Shown in pieces: positions 38,920 to 53,298 of a stretch of DNA of 64,000 nucleotides; the stretch's first letter is position 1, and each line of letters opens with the position of its first letter. The notes beneath the pieces are model-generated. The model was not told the DNA's origin. It ran no database searches and saw only the letters and a list, made by a program, of their open reading frames with translations. Location of the stretch: NCBI GenBank assembly GCA_937925685.1, contig CALAMI010000005.1:62001-126000 (forward strand), in the 5' to 3' direction. The DNA is from Candidatus Binatia bacterium. GTDB taxonomy: Bacteria > Desulfobacterota > Binatia > HRBIN30. A program made the translations under genes and the position numbers.

Positions 38920-40203
38920 ATGACGGAGCAAGATGTAGCATCGGTCCCGGTAGAGCAGCTCGACGTCATCAGTGCCCGTATTTACGGCGAACGCGGTTAC
39001 CCCCATGCTGCTTGGGCCCGCCTCCGCCGTGAGGCACCTGTGTGCTTCATGCAACCTCCCGGTTATCGGCCCTTTTGGGCTGTAACGAAACATGCCGACA
39101 TCATCGAAGTGTCCACTCAGCCAGACAAGTTTCGTAGCGCTGGGCGGTTCATCTTGTTCCCGGACGCAGAGATGCCTGGGCCCAAACTAGAAGAGGACCC
39201 GCCCTTGCGGATGCTGGTGAACATGGATCCTCCGGAGCACCGGGTTTACCGTAAGTTAGTGAGTGGTTGGTTCACTCCCCGGGCGATCGCGCGGCTGGAA
39301 AATCGCCTCGTAGAGCTGACGAATGAAATCTTCACGTCTTTGGGGCCAGCTGGAGAGTGGATCGAATGTGACTTCGTGCGCGACGTGGCTGCCTTGCAAC
39401 CTTTGCGCATGATTACCGAGATCCTTGGAATCCCACGGGAGCGGGAACAGTTTGTCTTGCGGGTGACCAATGAGAACTTTGGAATCGAGGACCCAGAGTT
39501 TCAACGTCCTGGCGACACACGTGAAGATCGCCTTGGATTTCTCTACGAAGCGTTCTCGTATTTAGAGGAGATCACTGAAGAGCGGCGCAGAAACCCCAAG
39601 GAAGATCTCTCGACAGTTCTGGCGTTGGCCACGATCGACGGGAAGCCTGTACCGCAGTTCGAGCTGTTTTCCCTGTATTTCCTGGTTATGGTTGCTGGCC
39701 ACGACACCACGCGAAACTCGATTTCGGGTGGCTTGCTCGCGTTGTTAGAGCACCCCGATGAGTTCGCCAAATTGCGAGCCAATCCAGGGCTCGTCGAGAC
39801 GGGGGCCGATGAAATTGTGCGCTGGACAACGCCGGTCATCCATTTTTCGCGAACCGCGACTGTCGATTACGAGCTGCGTGGTCAACGAATCCGCAAGGGT
39901 GATTCCGTAGCTCTCTTCTACCCATCGGCTAACCGCGATGAAGAGGTCTTCCCTGACCCGTTTGTCTTTCGGCTCGATCGCGAGCCTAACCCTCACTTGG
40001 GTTTTGGCGTCGGCGAGCACTTTTGCTTAGGTGCGCACCTGGCGCGCCTGGACATCAAGGTTTTTTTCCGTGAGTTTGCGCGGCGCATCGATGCGGTGGA
40101 GCTGGCGGGGCCAGTAGAACGGTTGCACGCGTCCTTCGTCGGTGGACCGAAACGGATGCCCGTACGTTTACGATTCAAGCCTGACCGCAGCCTCGCGAGC
40201 TAG
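38920..40203 (+). CDS. Cytochrome P450
   Basis: A 427-residue soluble bacterial P450 from ATG 38920 (TTG 38911 is possible). It has the oxygen-binding I-helix motif AGHDTTRN near residue 250, the K-helix ExxR in DEIVRWTTPV, the PERF-like FPDPFVFRLDREPNPHLGFG and the heme-ligand loop FGVGEHFCLGAHLAR with the axial Cys near residue 370. An N-terminal membrane helix is absent. The layout is typical of CYPs acting on steroids, terpenoids or alkyl chains that receive electrons from ferredoxin, but no ferredoxin gene is adjacent. It probably shares a transcript with the UbiA gene. It ends just before a strong hairpin. The exact CYP family and substrate are unknown. Confidence 0.93.
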   Translation: MTEQDVASVPVEQLDVISARIYGERGYPHAAWARLRREAPVCFMQPPGYRPFWAVTKHADIIEVSTQPDKFRSAGRFILFPDAEMPGPKLEEDPPLRMLVNMDPPEHRVYRKLVSGWFTPRAIARLENRLVELTNEIFTSLGPAGEWIECDFVRDVAALQPLRMITEILGIPREREQFVLRVTNENFGIEDPEFQRPGDTREDRLGFLYEAFSYLEEITEERRRNPKEDLSTVLALATIDGKPVPQFELFSLYFLVMVAGHDTTRNSISGGLLALLEHPDEFAKLRANPGLVETGADEIVRWTTPVIHFSRTATVDYELRGQRIRKGDSVALFYPSANRDEEVFPDPFVFRLDREPNPHLGFGVGEHFCLGAHLARLDIKVFFREFARRIDAVELAGPVERLHASFVGGPKRMPVRLRFKPDRSLAS

Positions 40204-40245
40204 CTGGCGCCCCTTACCACAGAGCAAGCCTGCCCAAGGTTCAAA

Positions 40246-40271
40246 GTGGGGAGCCCTCCCGGGCTCCCCAC
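40246..40271. terminator. Perfect 11-bp bidirectional terminator hairpin
   Basis: 40246-40256 and 40261-40271 are perfect reverse complements around a TCCC loop. It sits between the P450 stop (40203) and the stop of the convergent fusion gene (40277), so it can serve both; a short TTT follows on the minus strand. Confidence 0.75.
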
Positions 40272-40276
40272 GCGTT

Positions 40277-43200
40277 TCATCGGCAAGCAATGCTGTTGTT
40301 GGTCGCGGAAAGGGCACAGCGCGGCCGCACGCCGGTGCTCGGCCCAAAAGCGTAGCCTGCGCACTGCCCGAGCAAAGCCCGGCTTTGGTCGCCTAGAACA
40401 ATGGTGAAGCTAAGCGGCAATTGATGGGGGGCCACGGCAAAGTTGCCCGTCTTGCCCGTGATAGTGACGGTGAATAGGCCCGGAGTGCGCCGCGAACTCG
40501 AGACCACCACCTTCTTGATATCTCCCTGCAAGCCGTCGGGGTCGAGGTACTTTGCAACGTGACCATCCACACTCAGCGTCCAACCTGGGCTGGAGCGCGA
40601 TAGCTTGGCTCCCCCGGGAACTAGTCGCTGGAAGATGAGCGAGCCAAGCGAATCGTACACGGCAAACCGGATCCCTTCGGCCACGGGATTGGGTGGTGGC
40701 GTGGATGGGGTCAATAACCAAGCTCCACTCAAGACCAGATTGTCGTCACCAGGCGGCGTGGAAAGCTTGGTGATCTTGAGCCGCGGATTTGCAGGCTGGC
40801 TGGTGCCGTTGCAGAAAACGTCCGGCATCGCAGTTGGGGTGGAGGTGGGTTCGGGCGTAAAAGTTTCGGTTGGCGCGGGTGTGGGGGTTTCTGTGTGCGT
40901 GGGGGTAAAAGAGGGTGTCGAGGTGCGCGACTCGGTTGGAGTGGCAGTTGGCGACGGCGTATGGGTCGGAGTGAGCGTGGGCCCGCCTGGGGTAATAGTG
41001 TGGGTTGGAGTCAGGGTGGGGGAATGTGTCGGTGTGTGGGTGGGAGTGAACGATGGTGTGAACGTCGCCGTCGGTACCGGCGTGTTTGTCGGTGTGTGCG
41101 TCGACGTCGGTGTCAGAGTTGGGGTTTTTGTGGGTGTCGACGTCGGTGTCCGAGTAAAGGTGGGCGTCGGGCTGGGAGTTGCGGTCGACGTGGACGTCGG
41201 CGTCGCCGTTGGCGTTGTAGAGCCGCCGGGCGTACTGTTGGGATCAGCAGGATCTGATCCCGCATCGAGCTCGTCGCGATCGAAGAAGGTATCTTCGTCG
41301 CGGTCGACACCGAGGCGCACCGCCGAGCCGAGAGGCACCGCTGTGTACGTGAGCTCTTGCCCAGGGGTGGCGGCTACGGTGCGTAGGGCACTGTCGGTCC
41401 AGGCTGCTTCGCCCGCTCGGTCTGGTTGGAAGGTGCCGGCCGCGGTTCGATACCAGCCGCGGAGCTGGCCGTTGTAGCGGCCTTTGACAACCAGGTCGGT
41501 TTCGCCCGCAGCAGCTCGCTGAATGAGCAAGTCGATGCGTGGGTTCACTTGCGCTGCGTTAGTGCTTGTCAGGGTCACCTGCTGACCGACGATCGGGTAG
41601 AGGTCCGTGTCAAAGGCCAAGAGGAACTGTTCCACGTCACGACGCTGCTGATCCCCACCGTCGAACCCGACGCCATTCTGGTTGTTGAACACGGTGGCGT
41701 TCAAGAATCGAAACAAGGTGTCTACGCTACCGTCGTGGAGGAAGCCAAAGCCGCGAATTTGGTCGCCCTTGTGCCCGTTGTCGCCCGCATTGAAGAACGG
41801 CACTGCGGCCATGCCGAACATGCCCACTTTCTGATAGAGGTTACGAAGATGAGCAATCTTAATCACTTGCGGCTCGTTTTCGAAGCTTGCTTTGCCATCG
41901 GTCCCGAAAAACCCTTGGGAACGGTTGGTCACGTGACAACCGTTACATGTGTGTCCCAGAGCATTGTCTGCTCCGTCCGCCCCAAAGTTTATGCCATCGG
42001 AGCGCCTCGGGCCAAAGAAAAAGCTGTGGCCATTTTGCTGCGATGGCGTCAGTGAATTGTCCAGATTGCGGATGGGGTTGGGCGGCAGCTTCACTTGTAA
42101 GATGAAGTCGGTAAACGCTTGCATCTCGGCAGGGGTGAGTTGACTGGTTCGACCCAGCAACCCCGGAAACGCCCCATTGAATGCCTTGAACGCAAGATCT
42201 GCACTAAAAGGCTGGGAACTGCCACCATTGCGGTCACCTCGCCAGTGCATGGCTCCATGATTGGCCAAGCCGCGAAGCGTCTGCGTGGTCATGGGACCTT
42301 TCATGGGGTGAAAATCTCGAAACGTCCCGGAGGGAATGAAAGCCGCGAGCTTGACCGGTAGCGGGTTGGTTTGGGTCTCGTCGTCGGGGTTTCCCAGGTC
42401 CCAGGCCAGGCTATCGAGGTCAGCGAAGATGTGGCAACTGGCGCACGCTGCCTCGCCGTTGCTGGAAGTGTAAAAGGCATCGTAAAGAAACCGTCGGCCG
42501 TTAACCACACTCGGAGGTTCGGGATTGTAAAGGGAAACGTGGTCGACCTCGGTCCGCGTGCTCGTGTCCACAATGGCGATGCCATTGTCGAAGCGAGTGA
42601 GCACGTACAGACGTTGCAGACCCTCGTGCAAAGCGAGGCCAGCAGGCCCGCCCCCACTCACGCTGATGTAGTTCGCCTGGTTCGGCACGAAAGTGTCGTT
42701 TTCCAGCGCCGCAGTGTTGAACACGCCGACCTTGCTCGATCCGAATGCCGCCACGTACAGTGTTTGGCCGTCACTGGTAATCGCGAGGTCCAATGGGGTG
42801 GCCAAACTGTGGTCCTTCACCCCAGGTGGTGCCGGGCGTACATCGTAATCGATATGTTTGTTCAAGTGCCGAGGAAGAACATTGCTTCCCGCCAGCACCG
42901 TGATGCGCGACTCGGCAAGGTGTCCTTGCACCGTGGTACCACCAAATTGTGCAGCGTAAATGCCAGGCCCCTCGAAGCGGAACTCGTTGCGCGACTCGAA
43001 GTTGCTTACGTACACTTTGCCGTTCGCTGGGTTTACTGCCATGTTAAACAGAATCGTTCCGACGCCGGTGTAAAAGCCCGCACTGCCGGCGAGCTGAGCT
43101 GGAGGATTGGCCATGGCGTCGATGACAAACACGTCTTGGTCCGGCAAACTGAATCTGACGGCATTGTTCCAGTTTCGCCCGCACACGCTGCCGGGGCAGT

Positions 43201-44089
43201 CTGCATCTGTTTTGCAGCTCCATCCGTACTTGGAACCACCAGCGCAAGCTTTGTCGGCCCAGTAGGAACCATTCCACTTAACGATAAGCCCGACCTCGGG
43301 TGCCGCTGCTCCGGTGTGATCTGTGGTCGGAAGTGGCAAGCCCCCGGGTACGGTTGTCCCCGATACCGTGCACGGCCCGGCAACGATCGTGTCGGTCTTG
43401 TTGCTGTCATTGCAAACCAGGCCCTCGTTGATCACGGTCGTTTGATTGCCACTGTGAAAGACGGCAGCATAGACACGCGTGCCGTCGGGCGTAGCGGCTA
43501 AGGCACGTGGGGTGTCGCCGAATAAAGTCAAAATCGTCAAGGGTGTTCCACCGAGCGTATTCCCGAGGTTGCTGGCGTCGAACACCCACACGTCGGCACG
43601 GCCGACTCCGGCGGTAGTGAGCTCCGGAGGGTTGGGGTTGTTTTGGCCACGGTGGGCGCAAGTGATGAATGCTCGATTTTTCCCCGGGCCAGCGAACACG
43701 ATGTCCCGCGGTTCGTCGCCCACAAGAAGGGTGCGAACCACCCGGGCCGGCGAACTGGAGAGGTCGACGATGCTCACACTGTCCGAGAGGTGGTTGACCA
43801 CCCACACCTCTGTGTTCGTTCGTGCAGCGACGGCAACGGGTTCGAGTCCGACCGGAACGGACTCGAGATGCGTCAATCCCCCATTGGCCCCAATGGAAAA
43901 AATTTCCAAACGGCTATCAGGAACGTTGGCCGCGAAAAGTTTCGTTCCATCGGGCGACAACGCCAGCGGCCTTACGGGACCGCTTTCGAACAAAGTGTAG
44001 GAGCCGGCCCAACTCACCCGCGTAACGACCCATGGGCTGGCCAGGGTACACACCCCCACCAGGGCGACCCACGCGAGCAATTTTTTCAC
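40277..44089 (-). CDS. Exported beta-propeller / di-heme peroxidase-like / Thr-Pro-linker fusion protein
   Basis: A 1,270-residue protein. GTG 44089 is preferred since GGAGGG lies 9 bases before it; ATG 44098 directly touches that sequence. A signal peptide ([17 protein letters not shown]) is followed by YncE-like propeller repeats ([60 protein letters not shown]), then a module with two c-type heme sites, CASCH and [25 protein letters not shown] and [14 protein letters not shown], as in MauG/cytochrome c peroxidases. A Ca-site-like [19 protein letters not shown], a Thr/Pro linker of about 125 residues and a C-terminal beta domain follow. It is probably a surface or periplasmic redox protein; substrate unknown. 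Confidence 0.8.
40830..41225 (-). repeat. Thr/Pro-rich low-complexity linker coding region
   Basis: About 130 codons reading mostly T-P-T, S-P-T and T-x-T-P units, with degenerate GT-rich DNA on the plus strand. Similar linkers occur in the genes at 32870 and 61192. They look like flexible spacers, possibly glycosylated; this is a protein-level repeat, not a CRISPR or tandem DNA array. Confidence 0.8.
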
Positions 44090-44353
44090 GATTGTCATCC
44101 CTCCCTCGGTGCGCATGTCTACAATGAATCTGGGCGATTTGGCAACCGCAATCCTGTTTTTCTTTGCGGCCGTCACCGGACTCGGCGCGGGAGATACGAA
44201 TTGGGGTCCTCTGGCCAGGGAGGCATCTCCTGTTCTTCACAGGTTGCGGGTCGACAAGCACGGGAGCGGGCTGTTTCCCCGGGGAGGGGCGGAATGCGAA
44301 GCCAAGCAGAGATGGTGTTTACCTACAGGGTCGCACGCATGGCGTTTCACGCG

Positions 44354-44383
44354 CCAGCCCCCGCACCGATCCTCGGGGGCTGG
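44354..44383. other. Perfect 10-bp stem-loop upstream of the ECF operon
   Basis: 44354-44363 pairs perfectly with 44374-44383 around a 10-base loop, GC-rich. It lies about 60 bases before the possible ECF promoter and 265 bases upstream of the fusion-gene start. It could be a terminator insulating the operon, or a leader structure. Confidence 0.4.
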
Positions 44384-44444
44384 GGTTGCCGTGGCAGCAC
44401 TTACCAACGGCGAGAGGCTCAGTGCAGGGCTGAGCATGGTGTTT

Positions 44445-44473
44445 GGGAATAAACGTCACGGTTCATTCGTTGT
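44445..44473 (+). promoter_or_regulatory. Possible autoregulated ECF promoter
   Basis: GGGAAT (44445-44450) and CGTTGT (44468-44473) are separated by 17 bases and lie 37 bases before the sigma-factor start. This resembles ECF promoters (GGAA-type -35, CGT-type -10), which often drive their own operon. No second copy was found elsewhere in the window. Confidence 0.3.
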
Positions 44474-44509
44474 TATACAGAGAAATTCGAAGAGCGAGGT
44501 TGAGTCACG

Positions 44510-45079
44510 GTGCGGTGGCGACGGAAACAAACGGACCTGACAACGAAGCTCTTGCCGCATCTTCCGGCGCTTTACAATTTTGCCCTCTCTTTGGCTGGCC
44601 CCAGCGATGCCGAAGACCTGGTGCAAGCTACGATGTTGAAAGCTGTTGAGTGGTGGAAGCAGCTCGAGGGGCGCTGCGATGTGCGGACATGGCTATTTGT
44701 CGTGCTGCGCAACGCTTGGATCGACTTAAGCCGGCAGCGTGCCCGCGGTACTCAGTTACTCCCCGAGGTGGCGGACGCTGGTGATGGGGAACGTATGTTC
44801 GATCCTGAAAAGGTCACGGTGGAGCGCGAGTGGGCGAGTCAAGTGCAGCGGGCGCTCTGCACCCTTCCAGAGGCGTATCGTACCCCCTTGTACCTGCGAG
44901 ACGTGGAGGGGTTCGCTTACAAAGAAATAGCCGAGATTCTCCGTTGCCCTCTCGGTACCGTGATGTCGCGACTGGCCCGTGCGCGTTCCTTGTTGCGGGC
45001 TCAACTGCTCGAACAACTGGAAGAGCGTGGTTGGCAAGGGAGTCGTAAACAGCGGAGCAATGGCCACCATGACCTGTAA
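44510..45079 (+). CDS. ECF-type RNA polymerase sigma factor
   Basis: A 189-residue sigma factor with GTG start at 44510 and GAGG about 12 bases upstream. Region 2 contains PALYNFALSLAGPSDAEDLV followed by ATMLKAVEWW and the DVRTWLFVVLRNAWIDLSRQ helix. Region 4 contains LPEAYRTPLYLRDVEGFAYK, EIAEILRCPLGTVMSRLARA and RSLLRAQL, the promoter -35 reading helix-turn-helix. There is no region 1 or 3, as expected for ECF factors. The next gene, its anti-sigma factor, overlaps by 20 bases. Together they should form a signal-controlled switch. The downstream peroxidase and cytochrome genes are the most likely targets, by position. Confidence 0.92.
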   Translation: MRWRRKQTDLTTKLLPHLPALYNFALSLAGPSDAEDLVQATMLKAVEWWKQLEGRCDVRTWLFVVLRNAWIDLSRQRARGTQLLPEVADAGDGERMFDPEKVTVEREWASQVQRALCTLPEAYRTPLYLRDVEGFAYKEIAEILRCPLGTVMSRLARARSLLRAQLLEQLEERGWQGSRKQRSNGHHDL

Positions 45080-45881
45080 CGAATTTCGCAAGTACATTTC
45101 CGCCTACGTCGATCACGAGATTAGCGTCGAGCGCGCCATGCAGCTCGAAGAACATGTGCAGGCATGCAGTGCTTGCAGTCGGCTGCTGCAGGCGGAGCAG
45201 TGGGTGGCCGAGTCGGTGCGCCAGTTCTATCCCCGAGTTGCTTGCCCGCCGGCGCTCGAAGAGCGGATCCGCAACGCGGTGGTCGACCGCGGTGCGCTGA
45301 CGCGGTCGCTTCGACTGCTGCCAGCAGCGGCGGGCTTGGCAGTGATCCTCCTATTGGTGTGGGCGTTAGCGCGAACGCCTGCCCCCGATCGATCGCTACC
45401 ACCTCGGGTGGCGCTCGCTGCCCAACTGTACAAGGAGCTTTTAAAGGACCAATTGCCCCTTTCCGTCCGCAGTCACGACGTCGCGGTGTTAGACCAGTGG
45501 CTCGCCGAACACCTCGGGTTTTACCCACGCGGTACACTGCGGTCGCCCGATGGCTTGCTCGCGGAGGGTGCGGGCGTGGTTCATGCTCACGGGGAGATGC
45601 TGGGGGCAGTGGCATATCAGTCACCCCGAGGCGCCGCGTTACTCCTAATTGGTGTGGCCGAGCGGGGGCCAGGTGGCGGGACGACGGTGGCCGCGAAGGA
45701 AACAGCGTTTCGGACGTTCATCCAAGGCCGCCGGAAGTTTGTCGCCTGGAAGCATGGAAAACTGTCGTATGTTTTGGTCAGCGAAGGCGAGCAGGACGGA
45801 GCGCGCGCCTGCAGCAGCTGCCATACCGGTGTGACGAGCGATCGTTTGGCGGATTTCCCAGGGGTCACCGGGCAACTTTAG
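45060..45881 (+). CDS. Membrane anti-sigma factor with periplasmic C-terminal heme-c motif
   Basis: A 273-residue protein from ATG 45060 (45069 also possible). The N-terminus is a zinc anti-sigma domain: CNEFRKYISAYVDHE and the H-x3-C-x2-C set of EEHVQACSACSRLL (His32, Cys36, Cys39). A transmembrane helix at about residues 83-103 (LLPAAAGLAVILLLVWALA) is followed by a periplasmic domain of the RsiW/ChrR-neighbour type with VLDQWLAEHLGFYPRG, LGAVAYQSPRGAALLLIGV and KFVAWKHGKLSYVLVSE. Unusually, residues 251-255 read CSSCH, a c-type heme attachment site, in the compartment where cytochrome c is matured. Heme could serve as a redox, oxygen or NO sensor that frees the sigma factor. That role is inferred. 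Confidence 0.85.
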   Translation: MATMTCNEFRKYISAYVDHEISVERAMQLEEHVQACSACSRLLQAEQWVAESVRQFYPRVACPPALEERIRNAVVDRGALTRSLRLLPAAAGLAVILLLVWALARTPAPDRSLPPRVALAAQLYKELLKDQLPLSVRSHDVAVLDQWLAEHLGFYPRGTLRSPDGLLAEGAGVVHAHGEMLGAVAYQSPRGAALLLIGVAERGPGGGTTVAAKETAFRTFIQGRRKFVAWKHGKLSYVLVSEGEQDGARACSSCHTGVTSDRLADFPGVTGQL

Positions 45882-45894
45882 TGGAGGCCAGACA

Positions 45895-47034
45895 ATGGGT
45901 ATGGGGAGAACTTGGAGGAAGTCCATTGCGACGCTGCTGGGTGCGTTTGCCCTGTACTTGCCCAAGGGAGTGCTGGAGCCCGAAATCCCGGAAAACAATC
46001 CTTTGACCGTAGAAAAAGTCGCCTTGGGCAAAAAACTGTATTTCGATAAGAGATTGTCCGCTGACGGTACGGTTTCGTGCGCTTCCTGCCACGACCCGTT
46101 GCACGGCTTCGCCGACGGGAAAGTGGTTGCCACCGGTATTCGCGGACAAGCTGGGGCGCGAAACTCACCCACGGTACTCTACACGGGCTTCAGCGAAGTG
46201 CAATTCTGGGACGGACGTGCTCCTACGTTGGAAGAACAGGCCAAGCAGCCACTAGTTAATCCCGTGGAGATGGGTCAACCGTCCCACGATGCAGTAGTCC
46301 AAGCGGTGCTCCGCGCTCCAGATTATCCGCCGTTATTCGAAAAGGCATTTGGCTCGTCGCAAGTGACCATCGATCGCATCGTGCAAGCCATTGCCTCGTT
46401 CGAACGCACCCTGGCCCCGTTCTCTTCCCCCTTCGATCGCTTTCTTGCTGGCGACAAGAACGCACTGAGTGACGCGGCCAAGCGCGGCTTTCAACTTTTT
46501 CAAGGGAAAGCCCGTTGTGTCACCTGCCACGAGTTCAACACCTCCTTTCCGTACTTCACCGACAACAAGTTCCACAACATTGGCGTGGCGATGAAGGGAA
46601 ATTTCGAACAGCTTGCACGCCAAGCGCAGGCTATCCAGGCCCGAGGCGACAAGGAGGCGGAGTCCAGCCTTGCACACAAGCCGGGCGTCGAAGCTCTAGG
46701 CCGCTGGCTCGTGACGCGCGCACCGAGAGACATCGGCGCCTTCAAGACCCCCGGGCTTCGCAACGTGGCTCTGACTGCGCCGTACATGCACGATGGCAGT
46801 CTCAAGACATTGGAGGAAGTGATGGACTTCTATAACCGCGGTGGCGAGCCCAACCCGAACCTCGATGGGGGGATGCGACCGCTCAATCTCAGTCAAGAGG
46901 AGATCGCCGATATGATCGAGTTCATGAAATCCCTCACGGACGACAGCGGCGGGAAGAATTTCGATTGGGAGGAATTGAGGGAACTGTCGCGCAAAACGCG
47001 AGCCGGGGAGCTGGTGGCCGCTCCAGCCCCCTGA
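45895..47034 (+). CDS. Di-heme cytochrome c peroxidase (MauG/CcpA family)
   Basis: A 379-residue protein with GGAGG about 8 bases before ATG 45895. After a signal-like N-terminus it has both heme sites: CASCHDPLHGFADG near residue 61 and CVTCHEFNTSF near 205, plus RNSPTVLYTGFSEVQFWDGR, LPAF-type NPVEMG and the C-terminal FKTPGLRNVALTAPYMHDGS, all typical of bacterial cytochrome c peroxidases that reduce hydrogen peroxide in the periplasm with electrons from cytochrome c. It begins 13 bases after the anti-sigma gene and is likely part of the same transcript. MauG-like cofactor-forming activity is an alternative. Confidence 0.92.
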   Translation: MGMGRTWRKSIATLLGAFALYLPKGVLEPEIPENNPLTVEKVALGKKLYFDKRLSADGTVSCASCHDPLHGFADGKVVATGIRGQAGARNSPTVLYTGFSEVQFWDGRAPTLEEQAKQPLVNPVEMGQPSHDAVVQAVLRAPDYPPLFEKAFGSSQVTIDRIVQAIASFERTLAPFSSPFDRFLAGDKNALSDAAKRGFQLFQGKARCVTCHEFNTSFPYFTDNKFHNIGVAMKGNFEQLARQAQAIQARGDKEAESSLAHKPGVEALGRWLVTRAPRDIGAFKTPGLRNVALTAPYMHDGSLKTLEEVMDFYNRGGEPNPNLDGGMRPLNLSQEEIADMIEFMKSLTDDSGGKNFDWEELRELSRKTRAGELVAAPAP

Positions 47035-47063
47035 AAGAAGGTGCGGCAAAAGGAGGGAAGAAC

Positions 47064-48212
47064 ATGGTCAAGTACATGCTTCCTCGGGAACGCAAGAGGC
47101 AACAGTACCTGACTGAACGGGAGCGCTTTTTTGCGGAGCTTCCAAAGCTGAGTCGCCGCGACTTCTTCAAGACAGCGGCCAAAGCAGCCGCAGTCGCCAC
47201 CGCGTATTGGAAGGGTTTTCCCCCACACTCGTTCCAACTCGTTCGCGTCGCAGAAGCGAGGGAAACGCAACCAAAGTTCACGTTCGCGTACATTTCCGAC
47301 ACTCACATTTTGGATAAAGGCTTGAACCACCGTTTCGTAAAAGCCTGCCAGAAGGCGGTCGAAGACGTCAATGCCCTCGATCCCCAGCCTGACTTTGTGC
47401 TCTTTGGGGGCGACCTGGCCCAGCTCGGCAAAGCCGAAGAACTGTCCATCGGCAAACAGTTGCTGGATCAGCTCAAAGCTCCGGTGCGCATGATGGTGGG
47501 TGAGCACGACTGGTATCTCGACATGGGGGAAAAGTGGCAGGAGATGTTTGGCAAGCCCACCTACTCCTTCGATCACAAAGGTGTGCACTTCGTCGTGCTC
47601 AATTCGGTGATTGTGGAAGACTACTGGACCGAGCCGAAAATGACCCCGATGGAGCGGATGTTGGCCATGGCGCAGCTCGACAACCCCAACGGCCGCCCCT
47701 TCATGGTGGGCGAAGAACAACGCGACTGGCTCCGTAAGGACTTAGCCCAGGTCGACAAGAAAACCCCAGTGGTCATCTTCTCCCATTCGCCCCTGTACAA
47801 GTACTACCGCCCATGGAACTTTTGGACGGAAGACGCCGAAGAAGTCCACAAAATCCTCGCGCCCTTCGAAGTTGTAACAGTGATTCACGCGCACACGCAC
47901 CAGGTGCTTACGCATCGGCTGCGTAACATCACCTTCCACGGCGTACTTTCCACCGCGTGGCCATGGCCCTACGCGCCTCGAGGGATTCCCGAGCTTACCG
48001 TGCAGATGGTCCGAGCGGATCCGTTCAACCAGTTCGATGGTTGCGGCTGGGGCAGTGTGGCCATGCGCTCGGATGGTCAGGCCGACAAGCATTACGTTTT
48101 GTGGGATCGCAATCCCATGACGGTGACGTTCGACCACGTTCGCCGTGGCAAGGAGGGCATGGCCGAGTTTGCCAAACCTCTTCACGGTAAGGTCGACTGG
48201 CCGTCCTACTGA
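47064..48212 (+). CDS. Tat-exported calcineurin-like metallophosphoesterase
   Basis: A 382-residue protein from ATG 47064, with AGGAGG upstream. The twin-arginine signal is LSRRDFFKTAAKAAAVATAY at residues 29-48, so the folded protein is exported. The metallophosphoesterase motifs follow: FAYISDTHI (D-x-H), VLFGGDLAQ, the third motif as VGEHDWY where most members have GNHD/E, then FSHSPLYKYY and IHAHTHQVL. Two metal ions are expected. The natural substrate is unknown. It lies 29 bases after the peroxidase gene. The ligand change Asn to Glu in motif three is seen in some exported members but I cannot say how common it is. Confidence 0.87.
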   Translation: MVKYMLPRERKRQQYLTERERFFAELPKLSRRDFFKTAAKAAAVATAYWKGFPPHSFQLVRVAEARETQPKFTFAYISDTHILDKGLNHRFVKACQKAVEDVNALDPQPDFVLFGGDLAQLGKAEELSIGKQLLDQLKAPVRMMVGEHDWYLDMGEKWQEMFGKPTYSFDHKGVHFVVLNSVIVEDYWTEPKMTPMERMLAMAQLDNPNGRPFMVGEEQRDWLRKDLAQVDKKTPVVIFSHSPLYKYYRPWNFWTEDAEEVHKILAPFEVVTVIHAHTHQVLTHRLRNITFHGVLSTAWPWPYAPRGIPELTVQMVRADPFNQFDGCGWGSVAMRSDGQADKHYVLWDRNPMTVTFDHVRRGKEGMAEFAKPLHGKVDWPSY

Positions 48213-48256
48213 TGTAGAGCCCACATGCAGCGGTAGGCACTAGGGAGGACAGTACG

Positions 48257-48868
48257 ATGATCAACCGTCGAGTTGGCTTGGTTGTGGTGGCGATCGGAGC
48301 AATGTATGCGCCGTTGTTTAGCTGCCCGGCCTCTGCGCAAGAACCTGGGAGACACGAGCTCCCACCTCCTCCGGATGGCAGGAGCAAAGTCATCGGTTTG
48401 TGCGACGGCCAAACCACGGTCGTCGTGCCTGGCCTTGCCCCTGGAGAACGAATGTCTCCGGGCCAGGCGCGCGAAGTGGCGGAGGAACTGATGCGGCAGT
48501 ACCAAGGAAAAACTTTGCTGGCGCATGGGGGCGCAGGCCACACGGAAAGAGAAACGCGCGTTTGGGAGGCGGAACTCAAACGTACGATCGACGAAGGCTA
48601 CAAACTCTTTCACTCGCCGGAACTGGGAACCAATGGGATCTCGTGCGACATGTGCCACCCCGACGCCAGCAACACCCACCCAGAGACTTACCCGAAATTT
48701 CAGACGCAACTCAAGCGCATTGCCCTGCTGCGCGACATGATCAACTGGTGCATCGAAAATCCCATGGAAGGACCACGGCTTGCGGACGATGACGAGAAGA
48801 TGAAGGCCTTGGAGGCTTACATCCTGTCTACCAGAAAAGGCGTGCCGTTGGCACCCGGTAAGCACTGA
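48257..48868 (+). CDS. Exported SoxA-like monoheme cytochrome c
   Basis: A 203-residue protein with GGAGGA upstream of ATG 48257 and a clear signal peptide (VGLVVVAIGAMYAPLFSCPA). The heme motif CDMCH is in GISCDMCHPDASNTHPETYP near residue 133. It continues with LRDMINWCIENPMEGPRLAD and EKMKALEAYILSTRKGVPLA, the layout of the SoxA C-terminal heme domain, where a Cys after IN is also present. SoxA acts in thiosulfate oxidation, but no SoxX, SoxYZ or SoxB is seen, so a general redox role is more likely. It follows the metallophosphoesterase gene after 44 bases. Confidence 0.8.
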   Translation: MINRRVGLVVVAIGAMYAPLFSCPASAQEPGRHELPPPPDGRSKVIGLCDGQTTVVVPGLAPGERMSPGQAREVAEELMRQYQGKTLLAHGGAGHTERETRVWEAELKRTIDEGYKLFHSPELGTNGISCDMCHPDASNTHPETYPKFQTQLKRIALLRDMINWCIENPMEGPRLADDDEKMKALEAYILSTRKGVPLAPGKH

Positions 48869-48900
48869 AAACGATGCTGGGCGCACGTCAGGGTGAAAAC

Positions 48901-49272
48901 GTGCGATTTGCGCAGCTTCTTGTAGCTTTGCTGGCGATCGCTTCAGGCGCCCGGGGAACTGCGGGCGAGCCGGAAGAACCATCGTGGCTGGCGGCTGTGT
49001 TCCTGCAACACCGTGAATTCTTGCAGCTGTCGGCCGAACAGCGGAACCAGTTGGAATTTGTATTCCGGCGTGCGGAAGCGACGTGGCAAGCCTTGACGCA
49101 ACGAATGATGGCCGCCGAACGCGACACCACGGCGAGGGGCCGTAGCGACTGGTTCCTCCTCGCTCGAGAGCGTGGACAGCTCCGCGTCTTTGCCGATCGC
49201 GACGCGCTGCGGGTGCTCGATCCACACCAGCGGGCCCGTTGGCGCGAGTTGACCTCTGTTAGGAAAGAATAG
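48901..49272 (+). CDS. Spy/CpxP-like small periplasmic protein
   Basis: A 123-residue protein from GTG 48901, with AGGGTGA about 8 bases upstream; an ATG at 48874 adds nine residues. A signal peptide ([17 protein letters not shown]) leads to an all-helical protein with two LTxxQ-like motifs: [19 protein letters not shown] and [13 protein letters not shown]. These repeats are typical of Spy/CpxP/ZraP proteins, which act as chaperones or stress sensors in the periplasm. It closes the run of exported redox genes 33 bases after the cytochrome gene, and this would fit an envelope-stress role. The similarity is short. Confidence 0.6.
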
Positions 49273-49597
49273 CGCCCTGCTTTCGAAATGCGCTTGCGCG
49301 CGATCACTGCAGCGGAGCGAAAGGGGAACCCGTTCGTCGTCTTACTCGCCTTTTTGTCTGAGTTTCGGGGATCAGTGGGTAGTCGGGTCCGAGGCGTCGT
49401 CCCGAGCGCCCACGAGCCGATTCACGGTCTCCGTATTTCGTAGCTCCATCCGACCATCGCTTCTCTGCCGCGGTGGTTCTGCTGGGATCCGTGACGCCAG
49501 CGTAAAACTACCGAGAAATTTTCTACTAGGATGCGGCGAGCCTATTGCGGGTTCGCTCGTTTTGCGCCACCAATGGGCGTGCACGAGGTCAGTTACG
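49273..49597. other. Intergenic, no gene seen
   Basis: About 325 bases. A T-rich run near 49345-49375 is not preceded by a good hairpin. Promoter for the downstream phosphoesterase presumably lies here. Confidence 0.4.
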
Positions 49598-51076
49598 GTG
49601 GCACGGGAACACAAAGGGCGTGGGAAGAAGTACAAGAAGAGGAACGGATCTTCCGGCTCGGCGATTTCGCGACGCCAGGCGCTAAAAGCCCTTGGCGTTG
49701 CGGCGGGAGCGGTGGCGTTTACTCCTTGGATTTCCAGTTGCGGCGATGACGGCGAAGGCGGTTTGGGGGGAGGCGGTAAACCGCTGTCTCCGGAAGAGCT
49801 CAAGATCGACACCGTGGTGTTGGTCATGATGGAAAACCGTACCTTCGACCACTACTTTGGTGCCTTGTCTCTTGTCGAAGGCCGGCCCGTGGATGGCTTG
49901 AAGGCGACGTTTGCCAACCCTCGGCCCGATGGAACGATGGTGCCTGTGTTCCCGATGGGAGACCGCTGTCTCGAAGATCCGCCGCACGGTTGGGAAGCGA
50001 GTTTCCGCCAGGTCAACGATGGCCGCATGGACGGTTTTGTGCGCGAACACTGGGCAGCCGTGGGCTCGGCCCACGGCGACCAGGTCATGGGCTACTACCA
50101 GCGCCAACAGCTACCGATTTACTACGCGCTGGCAGACGAGTTCGTGCTTTGCCAGCGTTGGTTTTGCTCGGTACGCGGCCCCACGTGGCCGAATCGAATG
50201 TACCTACTTGCCGCGCAGTCCGACGGTCGAAAGGGCAACGACTTTCCCAATCCCCCGGGGTTCCGATTTCGCACCATTTACGACGTTCTCAACGAAGCAG
50301 GGATCGACTGGAAGTATTATTACACGGATTTGCCTTTCCTGGCTTTGTGGGCGAGCTTGCGCAACCAAAGGGATCGGCTGTTGCCGCTACAAGCGTTCTT
50401 CGAAGACGCACGTGCTGGAACCCTTCCCCGCGTGTGCCTCGTAGAACCGGGCTTCGCTATCAACGACGACCATCCCCCGCACGACATCCAGCTTGGTCAA
50501 GCTTTCGTGGCTGCAGTGGTGCGCGCACTGGGGGCGAGTCCCCAGTGGCCACGAAGTTTGTTCATCCTCACCTACGACGAGCACGGCGGCTTCTTTGATC
50601 ATGTGCCACCGCCAACGGTGCCCGATGAACGCGCCTCGGAAGGCTTTGGCGCCCTTGGCCCGCGGGTGCCAGCGCTCATCGTGTCGCCTTGGGCTCGCCG
50701 CAGCTTTGTCTCTTCCACGTTGTACGAGCACAGCTCGTACCCCGCCTTCCTCGAGTTCCTTTTTCGCTTACCTCCGCTCACCATACGCGATCGGCAGGCG
50801 AACATTTTCATCGATGCTTTCGATCGCGTGCGCCTCGAAACCAACAACCCGCGACCCTTGCCGGAGCTGCCCGTCCTGACCGTTGACCGCCAGGCCCCGC
50901 CTGAGTGCGTGGCCCTGGGGGTGACAAACCGCGACGTACCAGGGTTACAGGACATCGAGCGCTTTGCCAATGCGGGTGGAATTCCCCGTGCTCTCGATCG
51001 CCGCCGCGACGCCGTACAAACCTTGTACGATCTTCATGCTGAGCTCGTACGCTTAGGGGGCGCGCGCTGGCGCTGA
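49598..51076 (+). CDS. Tat-exported phosphoesterase (phospholipase C / acid phosphatase AcpA family)
   Basis: A 492-residue protein; GTG 49598 has GAGGT upstream and keeps the Tat signal [18 protein letters not shown], which ends in a lipobox-like ISSC, so a lipoprotein is likely. The PF04185 signature [16 protein letters not shown] is near residue 80, with further conserved blocks [48 protein letters not shown] and [17 protein letters not shown]. The family cleaves phosphocholine/phosphoethanolamine lipids or phosphate esters outside the cytoplasm. The exact substrate cannot be told. The gene is monocistronic as far as I can see. Confidence 0.9.
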
Positions 51077-51261
51077 ACGTTTGCTAGCGCGGATGCCATA
51101 GCGCCTGAGGTGGCGCGCGGCAGCAGCCCGGATGCATTTTGGCGCTTGTGCGGGAACGTCATCCAGGTGACGGTTGAGAATCGGCCTGCAAAACGCCCTA
51201 CATCCTAAAGGAGATTTGGCACGGGAGTCGCACGAGTCCTCTCAGCAACGGAGGACACACC

Positions 51262-53298
51262 ATGCACTTCCGCGTACTCTCGCTGATGTTTGTGTCGAGC
51301 TTTCTTTCTCTAGCTACCGAAGCCACCACATTCCTTGTTGCCCACGAGCAGCAGCTTTCCCAACAGGCGGACACTATCGTGGTCGGTGAGGTTGCGGCGG
51401 TCACGCCGCAATACGATCGGGCTTCGCGGACGGTGTCGACGGTCGTTCGGCTGCGGATTTCGGAGGTTTTGAAAGGCGAGGCGCTACCCTCGCTGGATTT
51501 GGTGGAATGGGGGGGGAACACGGAGGAAATTGCCGCCCAGTTCTTCGGCGTGCCGGTTTATTGGCCAGGGGAAAAAGTGGTCGTCTTCGCCAGCCGCCGT
51601 CCGGATGGAACATGGGCGACGACCAGTTTGGCCTTGGGCAAGTATACCATCGTGGAGGGAGGCCGCCGATCGATCGCGCTACGAGATTTAGGACCTGGCA
51701 CCTTGGCGCTCGAGTGGGATGGCCGAGCGTTGCGCCCTACGGAGACGAGGGCTGCATACGATTGGTCGGCATTTCGCCGTTCCATCCTCGATGCCGTCTC
51801 CGGACGATCTGCTCCGCGAGCTATGCCGCTGAAATTGGATGCAACGGATCCGGAAGAGACGAAAGCCTTGTACGTTGCTCCCTTCGCCCTGATGAGTTCG
51901 CCCGGGCGATGGTTCGAGGCTGACCGGGGAGAGCCGGTGGGCTACTTTGTCGACCCGTCTGGCGATGCCACCATTGGGCCCGAAGAAACAAGAGCAGCAA
52001 TTGACGCCGCTATGGCTGCTTGGTCGACGCCACCCATTGCTACCCTGAGGCTGCAGAGGGCTGGTGAGGCAGCCCCAGGTAAGTTGGATTGCAGCGGTCC
52101 GACGCAAATTATGTTCAACGATCCGCAAGAGGTGCTTTCGGATCCTTGGTTTTGTTCGGGGATTTTGGCCGTTGGCGGGTTTTGTGCGGAAAAGTCGAGC
52201 ACTACGACGGTCAATGGGGTGACGTTTCCCCGAATTACCACGGCCAAGATTCTCTTTAACAATGGCTGGGGCCAGTGCCCGTTTTGGAATACCTGCAACG
52301 TGGCCGAGGTGGTGACGCACGAACTTGGCCACACGATTGGATTTGGCCATTCCGGCGATAGCCGAGCAACCATGTTTGCCTATGCCCACTTCGACGGACG
52401 CTGTGCGGCGCTGCGCGCCGACGATTTGGCCGCGTTGAGCTTCGTTTACCCGGCCTCTGCGAACCTGCACGATGTCGTAGTGGTGCCGCCCGCGCGGGCG
52501 AGAGCGCGCATTCGCCGGGGCAAGCCCGAGGTCTACCTCCCTCTCACTCTCACAGTACGTCACGCGGATACTTGGGGGGATCGAGCAAGATTTCGTTTGG
52601 TCAGCAACGACGGTACGTGCCCCGTAGGTACGGTCGGTGCAGCCAATTTCGGCATGTTTCCCGATGCTCCTGCCGAGGTCGAGCTGGCCCCAGGGGCTCA
52701 GGCAAAGGCAACAGTTTGGCTTAACGTGCGCGCTACTGCCTTTTCCACCAGCGATCCAGGCGATCCCGTTAGGTGCGAGCTGCAGTTCCGAGCGGAAGCG
52801 CTCGCGCAAGACAACATCGACCCGGTTCCCGGCAACGAGAGCGTGGTTGTGTCTCTCGATGTCATCGACGAGAATGACGTTGCCGGTCGCCAAGCCTTGC
52901 CCAGGTTAGTGCTCGAGCAAACCAAGCCCGTTTCGCTGCGGTTGCCCCGGGGCAAGCAGGAGATCGCCAAGTCCGTCGGCCTCAAGATCAGAACGGGCTC
53001 CTTGGCAGACACGGTATCGGTAATGGTGGATCCTGGAGACTGTCCCAGTGGGCTCGTGCAACCAGCACAAGCGCCCCGGGTACAACGCGTGTTCATAGGT
53101 GTAGCAATGGCAAGTAATCAAAAGGCTACCGCGCACGTTCCGCTGGTGTTCAACGCAAATTCAGTCTCCTCGGTCTTTCCCGGCTCCCCAACGCGATGCA
53201 CGGCTCGCGTGCAGGTTTCTGGCGAGAACACCGATACCAACCTTGGCAACAATTCCTTGCCGTTGGTGATCGATCTCCGTGACGACAACGATTTGTAA
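51262..53298 (+). CDS. Secreted matrixin-type zinc metalloprotease with C-terminal Ig-like domains
   Basis: A 678-residue protein with GGAGG upstream of ATG 51262 and a signal peptide (SLMFVSSFLSLATEA). An N-terminal domain of about 150 residues (ADTIVVGEVAAVTP, VVRLRISEVLKGE) precedes the catalytic part: the zinc site HELGHTIGFGHS near residue 353 followed by the Met-turn in SRATMFAYAHF, and a dispersed pair of Cys. The C-terminal 280 residues look like two beta-sandwich domains. The family cleaves extracellular proteins. It is convergent with the histidine kinase gene and no inhibitor is nearby. Confidence 0.88.
   Translation: MHFRVLSLMFVSSFLSLATEATTFLVAHEQQLSQQADTIVVGEVAAVTPQYDRASRTVSTVVRLRISEVLKGEALPSLDLVEWGGNTEEIAAQFFGVPVYWPGEKVVVFASRRPDGTWATTSLALGKYTIVEGGRRSIALRDLGPGTLALEWDGRALRPTETRAAYDWSAFRRSILDAVSGRSAPRAMPLKLDATDPEETKALYVAPFALMSSPGRWFEADRGEPVGYFVDPSGDATIGPEETRAAIDAAMAAWSTPPIATLRLQRAGEAAPGKLDCSGPTQIMFNDPQEVLSDPWFCSGILAVGGFCAEKSSTTTVNGVTFPRITTAKILFNNGWGQCPFWNTCNVAEVVTHELGHTIGFGHSGDSRATMFAYAHFDGRCAALRADDLAALSFVYPASANLHDVVVVPPARARARIRRGKPEVYLPLTLTVRHADTWGDRARFRLVSNDGTCPVGTVGAANFGMFPDAPAEVELAPGAQAKATVWLNVRATAFSTSDPGDPVRCELQFRAEALAQDNIDPVPGNESVVVSLDVIDENDVAGRQALPRLVLEQTKPVSLRLPRGKQEIAKSVGLKIRTGSLADTVSVMVDPGDCPSGLVQPAQAPRVQRVFIGVAMASNQKATAHVPLVFNANSVSSVFPGSPTRCTARVQVSGENTDTNLGNNSLPLVIDLRDDNDL

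Follow-up and report, generated by a model that had tools for sequence, protein, structure and literature searches.

The window analysed here, a stretch of 64,000 nucleotides from a Candidatus Binatia bacterium, encodes an anti-sigma factor whose probable role is to sense peroxide or redox state, and searches of the open-licence literature turned up no account of such a sensor. Somewhat better than even chances are given to a reading in which this protein is a membrane-bound class I zinc anti-sigma factor whose putative periplasmic heme c would sense peroxide or redox state and thereby free the partner sigma factor. The wider proposal, for which the chances are judged to be evenly balanced, is that of an ECF anti-sigma family of several phyla in which a periplasmic covalent heme c, gained in a single event by an older domain that may be RseB-like, would sense peroxide and induce periplasmic peroxide-using enzymes. 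If true, ECF signalling would have a direct periplasmic heme sensor, reading peroxide or redox state before the cytoplasm is reached. The family is present in cultured Acidobacteria (Edaphobacter, Granulicella and Silvibacterium), which makes it amenable now to spectra, mutants and a promoter reporter, and a candidate promoter motif is available for part of it.

Architecture of the window anti-sigma factor

44510..45079, + strand: ECF sigma factor gene (Sigma70_r2 E 2.4e-14, Sigma70_r4_2 E 2e-16)
45060..45881, + strand: ECF anti-sigma factor with CxxCH (273-aa ORF; likely start 45069)
45075..45176, + strand: zinc anti-sigma domain (residues 6-39, Pfam zf-HC2)
45303..45371, + strand: membrane helix (residues 82-104; AlphaFold2 model and sequence)
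45372..45878, + strand: periplasmic domain (two helices, seven strands and a C-terminal helix; predicted models)
45753..45755, + strand: His232, candidate second heme ligand in the window's clade (His in 4/54 heme-type rows)
45810..45824, + strand: CSSCH, presumed heme c attachment site (residues 251-255)

The preliminary description of this DNA had proposed an anti-sigma factor with an H-x3-C-x2-C zinc domain, one transmembrane helix and CSSCH near the C-terminus, encoded just downstream of its ECF sigma factor, and each of these elements was located: the 273-aa ORF contains the zinc motif (H32, C36 and C39), one model helix at residues 82-104 and CSSCH at residues 251-255 (45810-45824), and the sigma ORF (44510-45079) lies directly upstream, overlapping the anti-sigma start. 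Residue numbers are counted from the start used in that description (45060) and not from Met4 (45069), which is probably the true start, as MxxC is where the majority of aligned relatives begin. A search of anti-sigma families returned Pfam zf-HC2 on residues 6-39 (E 8.9e-10), and profile search matched the same domain at E up to 0.1 in 34 of 39 aligned members, a set of 39 sequences that does not cover every locus. Against the RsrA equivalog TIGR03988 the window protein scored 37.7 bits, below the curated cut-off of 62.5. Its zinc domain and adjacent ECF sigma gene are those of a class I anti-sigma factor, for which sigma binding and inhibition would be predicted. The solved structures closest to the sigma factor are named SigH and the one closest to the anti-sigma factor is RsrA, a likeness of sequence only. 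SigH and RsrA are thiol-stress systems.

The CSSCH domain lies across the membrane helix from the zinc domain, with the orientation taken from the family, in agreement with the periplasmic location proposed earlier. A conserved CxxCH in a domain that the membrane helix suggests to be exported fits a c-type heme protein, and the source genome matches the cytochrome c assembly family PF01578 three times, each time above cut-off. Class I cytochrome c (PF00034) was matched by neither the window protein nor any of the 39 aligned members at E up to 0.1, and the sCache_heme profile PF11845 (Tll0287) matched at best 1/39 members (E 0.028, not significant). No Rfam match was found in 40000-52000 of the window.

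Conservation, distribution and descent of the CxxCH domain

Relatives were collected with a DNA pattern for Phe, Trp, [ST]Y-x-L-[AV]S and CxxCH at fixed spacing, which, run against 84,980 species genomes, returned 45 stretches, all with the same domain and CxxCH, the latter being required by the pattern. H-x3-C-x2-C was also present at 41 of these loci, the remaining four being incomplete stretches, and the 45 are a lower bound on family size. Most records are supplied by Acidobacteriota (Edaphobacter lichenicola, E. aggregans, Granulicella mallensis, Silvibacterium bohemicum and strain KBS 89); the other labels are Deltaproteobacteria, Candidatus Binatia, Tectomicrobia, Nitrospirae and Myxococcaceae, the last three with one metagenome-derived genome each. 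The nearest named-locus relative of the window is Bacterium HR30 (L040), with 63% identity over the anti-sigma factor. When the single window protein was used as query against genome contigs, no relatives were found. Terriglobia relatives L042, L045, L055 and L065 have a longer N-terminus, a second Cys/His motif and a different sigma type upstream.

CxxCH arose by chance in 0.33% of 100,000 shuffles of the window anti-sigma factor; conservation in a search with a tail-free profile is a better test of the motif than shuffling. Such a profile matched 56 of 396 Acidobacteriota genomes, and CxxCH ended all 19 strong matches (E below 1e-30), which answers the question raised in the preliminary description of whether the motif is kept in close homologs. 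Seven of the 19 are in genomes already known through the CxxCH pattern, six of those being in the profile itself; the 12 from genomes new to the search all have CxxCH (12/12), and the tails of four of them (L111, L114, L115 and L116) would miss the DNA pattern. CxxCH was absent from nine weaker Acidobacteriota matches with a readable ORF (L117-L125). At family level, five of seven genomes were matched, including the source genome, and three full relatives from other genomes (62, 50 and 30% identity) all retain CxxCH; the match in G006 covers the N-terminal part only and has no CxxCH. At class level, where the profile included the tail, 13 of 148 genomes were matched, with CxxCH in nine matches at E 7.3e-17 or better; three weak matches that were read lack it, and a fourth (L018) has no proper ORF. 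In 19 genomes found through the DNA pattern, two additional strong copies (L094 and L095) have CxxCH, and eight weak copies that were read do not. No proper ORF was present at L100, L126 or L127. The middle pair of the motif varies (ten different pairs in 38 rows), and C, C and H are invariant.

Plain homologs have the same domain but an ordinary helix at its end instead of CxxCH. In a tail-free tree, from which seven fragments or duplicates were omitted (L046, L047, L054, L059, L067, L073 and L074), one branch split 54 heme-type from 20 plain proteins with SH-aLRT 90, which is under the starred level. The split is compatible with a single origin of the heme-type proteins, without proving it, and the putative covalent heme c site was probably gained once by the periplasmic domain. 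In the alignment, column 218 is His in 50/54 heme-type and 0/16 plain rows; the heme-type rows of both tree and alignment come mostly from the 45 loci selected for CxxCH. The window protein and L024 have Arg at 218 and His at 232, L040 and L064 have His at both, and L069 and L116 at neither. His232 is confined to the window's clade (4/54 heme-type rows). No His or Met column is invariant save the His of CxxCH. A bis-His heme is a reasonable guess for the heme-type domain; a plain ligand swap between 218 and 232 is disfavoured because simple strand pairing in the model would place them on opposite sheet faces.

These columns bear on the alternative that CxxCH is a thiol/disulfide or metal site and carries no heme. 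Such a site would suit the missing cytochrome c domain match, heme attachment being a prediction, but the invariant His, the variable middle residues and the co-occurring second His argue against it, as do export to the compartment of heme c and the cytochrome assembly proteins of the genome, and it is considered improbable.

Two predicted models (mean pLDDT 84.0 and 85.2) concur on a fold of two helices, seven strands and a C-terminal helix bearing CxxC. From that helix onward pLDDT is about 50-65, the CxxCH stretch being the least certain part of both models. When model residues of about 146-256 were compared with known structures, the C-terminal domains of RseB/MucB headed the structural list (Z 7.1-8.0, borderline per the tool), superposing over 88-91 residues with rmsd 2.2-3.3 and ~10% identity. 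Foldseek returned no match at E 0.001 or better for the second model, and a profile of the periplasmic domain returned none among PDB sequences at E up to 1.

Linked genes and promoter motifs

40277-44176, - strand: ORF of 1299 aa, divergent to sigma, with beta-propeller repeats, a region resembling MauG (two CxxCH) and a long tail rich in Thr/Pro
44446..44474, + strand: possible promoter block GGAATAAACG...CGTTGTT upstream of the sigma gene, common to window and HR30
45895..47034, + strand: MauG / di-heme cytochrome c peroxidase family enzyme with two CxxCH (CCP_MauG E 4e-61)
47064..48212, + strand: metallophosphoesterase (Metallophos E 1.5e-17) whose start resembles a twin-arginine signal (TAT_signal below cut-off)
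48257..48868, + strand: SoxA/TsdA-type cytochrome c (PF21342 E 2.1e-12)
48874-49272: small protein (sub-threshold Metal_resist match)
49562-51076: phospholipase C-type phosphoesterase with a twin-arginine-type start

The cassette at 45895-48868 (MauG-type enzyme, metallophosphoesterase and SoxA-type cytochrome) recurs beside the sigma pair in several groups. Neighbouring genes were surveyed by tblastn (E 1e-8) at 55 loci, 54 of them scripted and one added by hand (L140, the upstream part of the L031 locus, which ends before the anti-sigma gene). A MauG-type gene was found at 19/55 loci and KatG at 2/55, giving 21/55 with either, and the phosphoesterase and SoxA-type cytochrome without MauG at 4/55. 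None of the linked genes was found at 30/55 loci by tblastn, including Terriglobia with 4-6 kb of upstream DNA and L142, L145, L146, L151, L158 and L060 with 5-7 kb; this hint at the target is absent at most Terriglobia loci. An upstream sigma-like ORF was present in 40/47 loci, in two clusters, some loci being incomplete; six duplicates (L034, L040, L046, L056, L064 and L073) were dropped before these counts. For promoter and neighbour counts the same six were dropped and eleven loci were replaced by longer copies. Neighbourhoods were fetched for nine of 12 strong matches in new Acidobacteriota genomes, and L059 had no usable ORF in one locus survey.

Among solved structures the window MauG-type enzyme is closest to a di-heme enzyme and a di-heme peroxidase, and it scores below NCBIfam cut-offs. 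CCP_MauG was confirmed by profile for the enzymes of the window, L143 and L157. The products of the divergent genes L043:2624-4048 and L152:4471-5928 match no Pfam family, the N-terminal half included, and have a MauG likeness that is C-terminal only, a kind that the MauG-type genes of L052 and L062 resemble. In the window's group (5) the MauG-type gene follows the pair on the same strand; at 13 loci it is divergent, and in Myxococcaceae (1) it lies upstream of the pair, again on the same strand. The KatG of L155 scored 1267 bits (cut-off 981) and begins with an apparent signal peptide. An ORF of the 1299-aa type is also divergent in L028 and L029, with a propeller gene at the same place in L147, and the MauG-less cassettes of L021, L022, L023 and L147 contain a putative cupredoxin-like gene.

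The MauG-type enzyme, whose gene adjoins the pair at 19/55 loci, might use the anti-sigma factor as a substrate or exchange electrons with it, and Trp230 is present in 54/54 heme-type rows. Trp230 is, however, also present in 13/16 plain homologs, and CxxCH is kept at loci without visible MauG, leaving this reading very improbable.

In Blastocatellia-type loci, GGAATW-N14-GTGTTA lies between the sigma gene and the divergent gene, often in both directions. The strict motif had 9 matches in five of seven whole genomes (about 42 Mb), 8 of them at the locus, and the reversed pattern had 1; since the motif was derived from these loci, the count shows rarity elsewhere and not independence. A looser motif was found both ways in 9/54 loci, seven of which have a MauG-type gene on the divergent side, one KatG and one a GSDH-type gene; of the 49 matches to this motif, 27 fall inside a 550-base band around the sigma start. 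Eleven loci were fetched after the motif had been set: it was present both ways in five (L144, L152, L155, L156 and L157), toward sigma only in two (L143 and L151) and absent from four (L153, L154, L158 and L159), of which L153 and L154 nonetheless have a divergent MauG. A still looser genome search was noisier: across seven genomes it found 41 matches, and the reversed control found 16. Of the 41, 12 fall around the sigma start and one directly after the anti-sigma gene; four non-locus matches were read, and these precede a vanadium bromoperoxidase homolog ~380 bases downstream, a GSDH protein and a DUF3455 protein or, in one case, lie within a long ORF. At the window locus the Acidobacteriota motif has no match. 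The block preceding sigma in the window and HR30 is related to that motif and is not recognisable at the locus in G002, G004 and G098, the window and HR30 being the only two of five genomes checked that have it. L061 and L071 have another sigma-like ORF after the anti-sigma gene, again with a GGAATW-N14-GTGTTA-type motif in front of it.

Gene order in 25/55 loci, together with paired promoters in part of Acidobacteriota, suggests that the sigma factor serves a peroxide-linked operon. CCP, MauG and KatG use peroxide, and peroxide is favoured as the signal because the neighbouring enzymes use it; MauG-family enzymes are not all peroxide scavengers. It is unlikely, though less so than the other alternatives, that a real heme senses NO or general respiratory redox state, with the neighbours as parts of a c-type electron chain. 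The available part of PMC12889525 describes a heme c Cache sensor that binds NO tightly. The cassette moreover includes other c-type cytochromes and many loci are without a peroxidase, but KatG replaces the MauG operon at two loci, both with the same paired promoter motif. The c-type cytochromes of the linked cassette would also suit a tail that reports cytochrome c maturation or heme supply, sigma being freed when the heme-less domain is unstable; against this, the KatG loci and the bromoperoxidase homolog behind one motif match are not c-type, and the reading is quite improbable.

Proposed mechanism and comparison with known systems

In the favoured peroxide or redox mechanism, the cytoplasmic zinc domain would hold the ECF sigma factor at rest, as in the family at large, and the cytochrome c maturation system would attach heme at CxxCH of the C-terminal helix. 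The other heme ligand may be a second His, at column 218 in most relatives and at 232 in the window's clade. Periplasmic peroxide or an oxidised electron pool would shift the heme in its redox state or ligation and alter the domain, and sigma would then be released, perhaps via proteolysis. Freed sigma would transcribe its own operon and the peroxide-linked one, which is either KatG or the MauG-type/phosphoesterase/SoxA-type cytochrome cassette.

The heme reading is supported, at the level of sequence, by conservation of CxxCH with its variable middle pair, His218, the tree branch, the three PF01578 matches, the linked genes and the paired motif. Counted against it are the 30/55 loci without linked genes, the derivation of the motif from some of the same loci and its lack in the window, the four proteins without His218 (L024, L069, L116 and the window's), the low-confidence model of CxxCH and the MauG enzyme scoring below NCBIfam cut-offs. 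Of the earlier interpretation, the conserved CxxCH and the domain beyond the helix stood, and its list of signals (redox, oxygen, NO or peroxide) was narrowed towards peroxide or redox by the neighbouring and divergently promoted genes.

Among the matches listed in open-licence PMC literature (titles and abstracts), there was no anti-sigma factor with covalent heme, and in a paper on class I anti-sigma factors (PMC7406223) a term search of the main text found neither 'heme' nor 'cytochrome'. The class I zinc anti-sigma factors RsrA, RsiW and ChrR likewise have an N-terminal zinc domain and a partner ECF gene upstream, and a profile search among solved structures matched RsrA with E 2.1e-8, RsiW with 3e-7 and ChrR with a weak 0.014; unlike these, the window protein adds a periplasmic CxxCH domain. 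In contrast to RseB/MucB, the domain here belongs to the anti-sigma factor itself and has CxxCH. The sCache_heme sensors (DUF3365/Tll0287, GSU0582 and GSU0935) are likewise periplasmic sensors with a conserved CxxCH on an existing scaffold, a CxxCH fragment having been added to Cache sensors, the tight NO binder among them, as far as the available part of PMC12889525 describes; here the Tll0287 profile gave no significant match and the output is an anti-sigma domain. HasS/HxuR heme uptake also uses ECF/anti-sigma pairs with heme as the signal, but there, according to the available part of PMC12670364, it is free heme bound by an outer-membrane receptor, unlike the window system.
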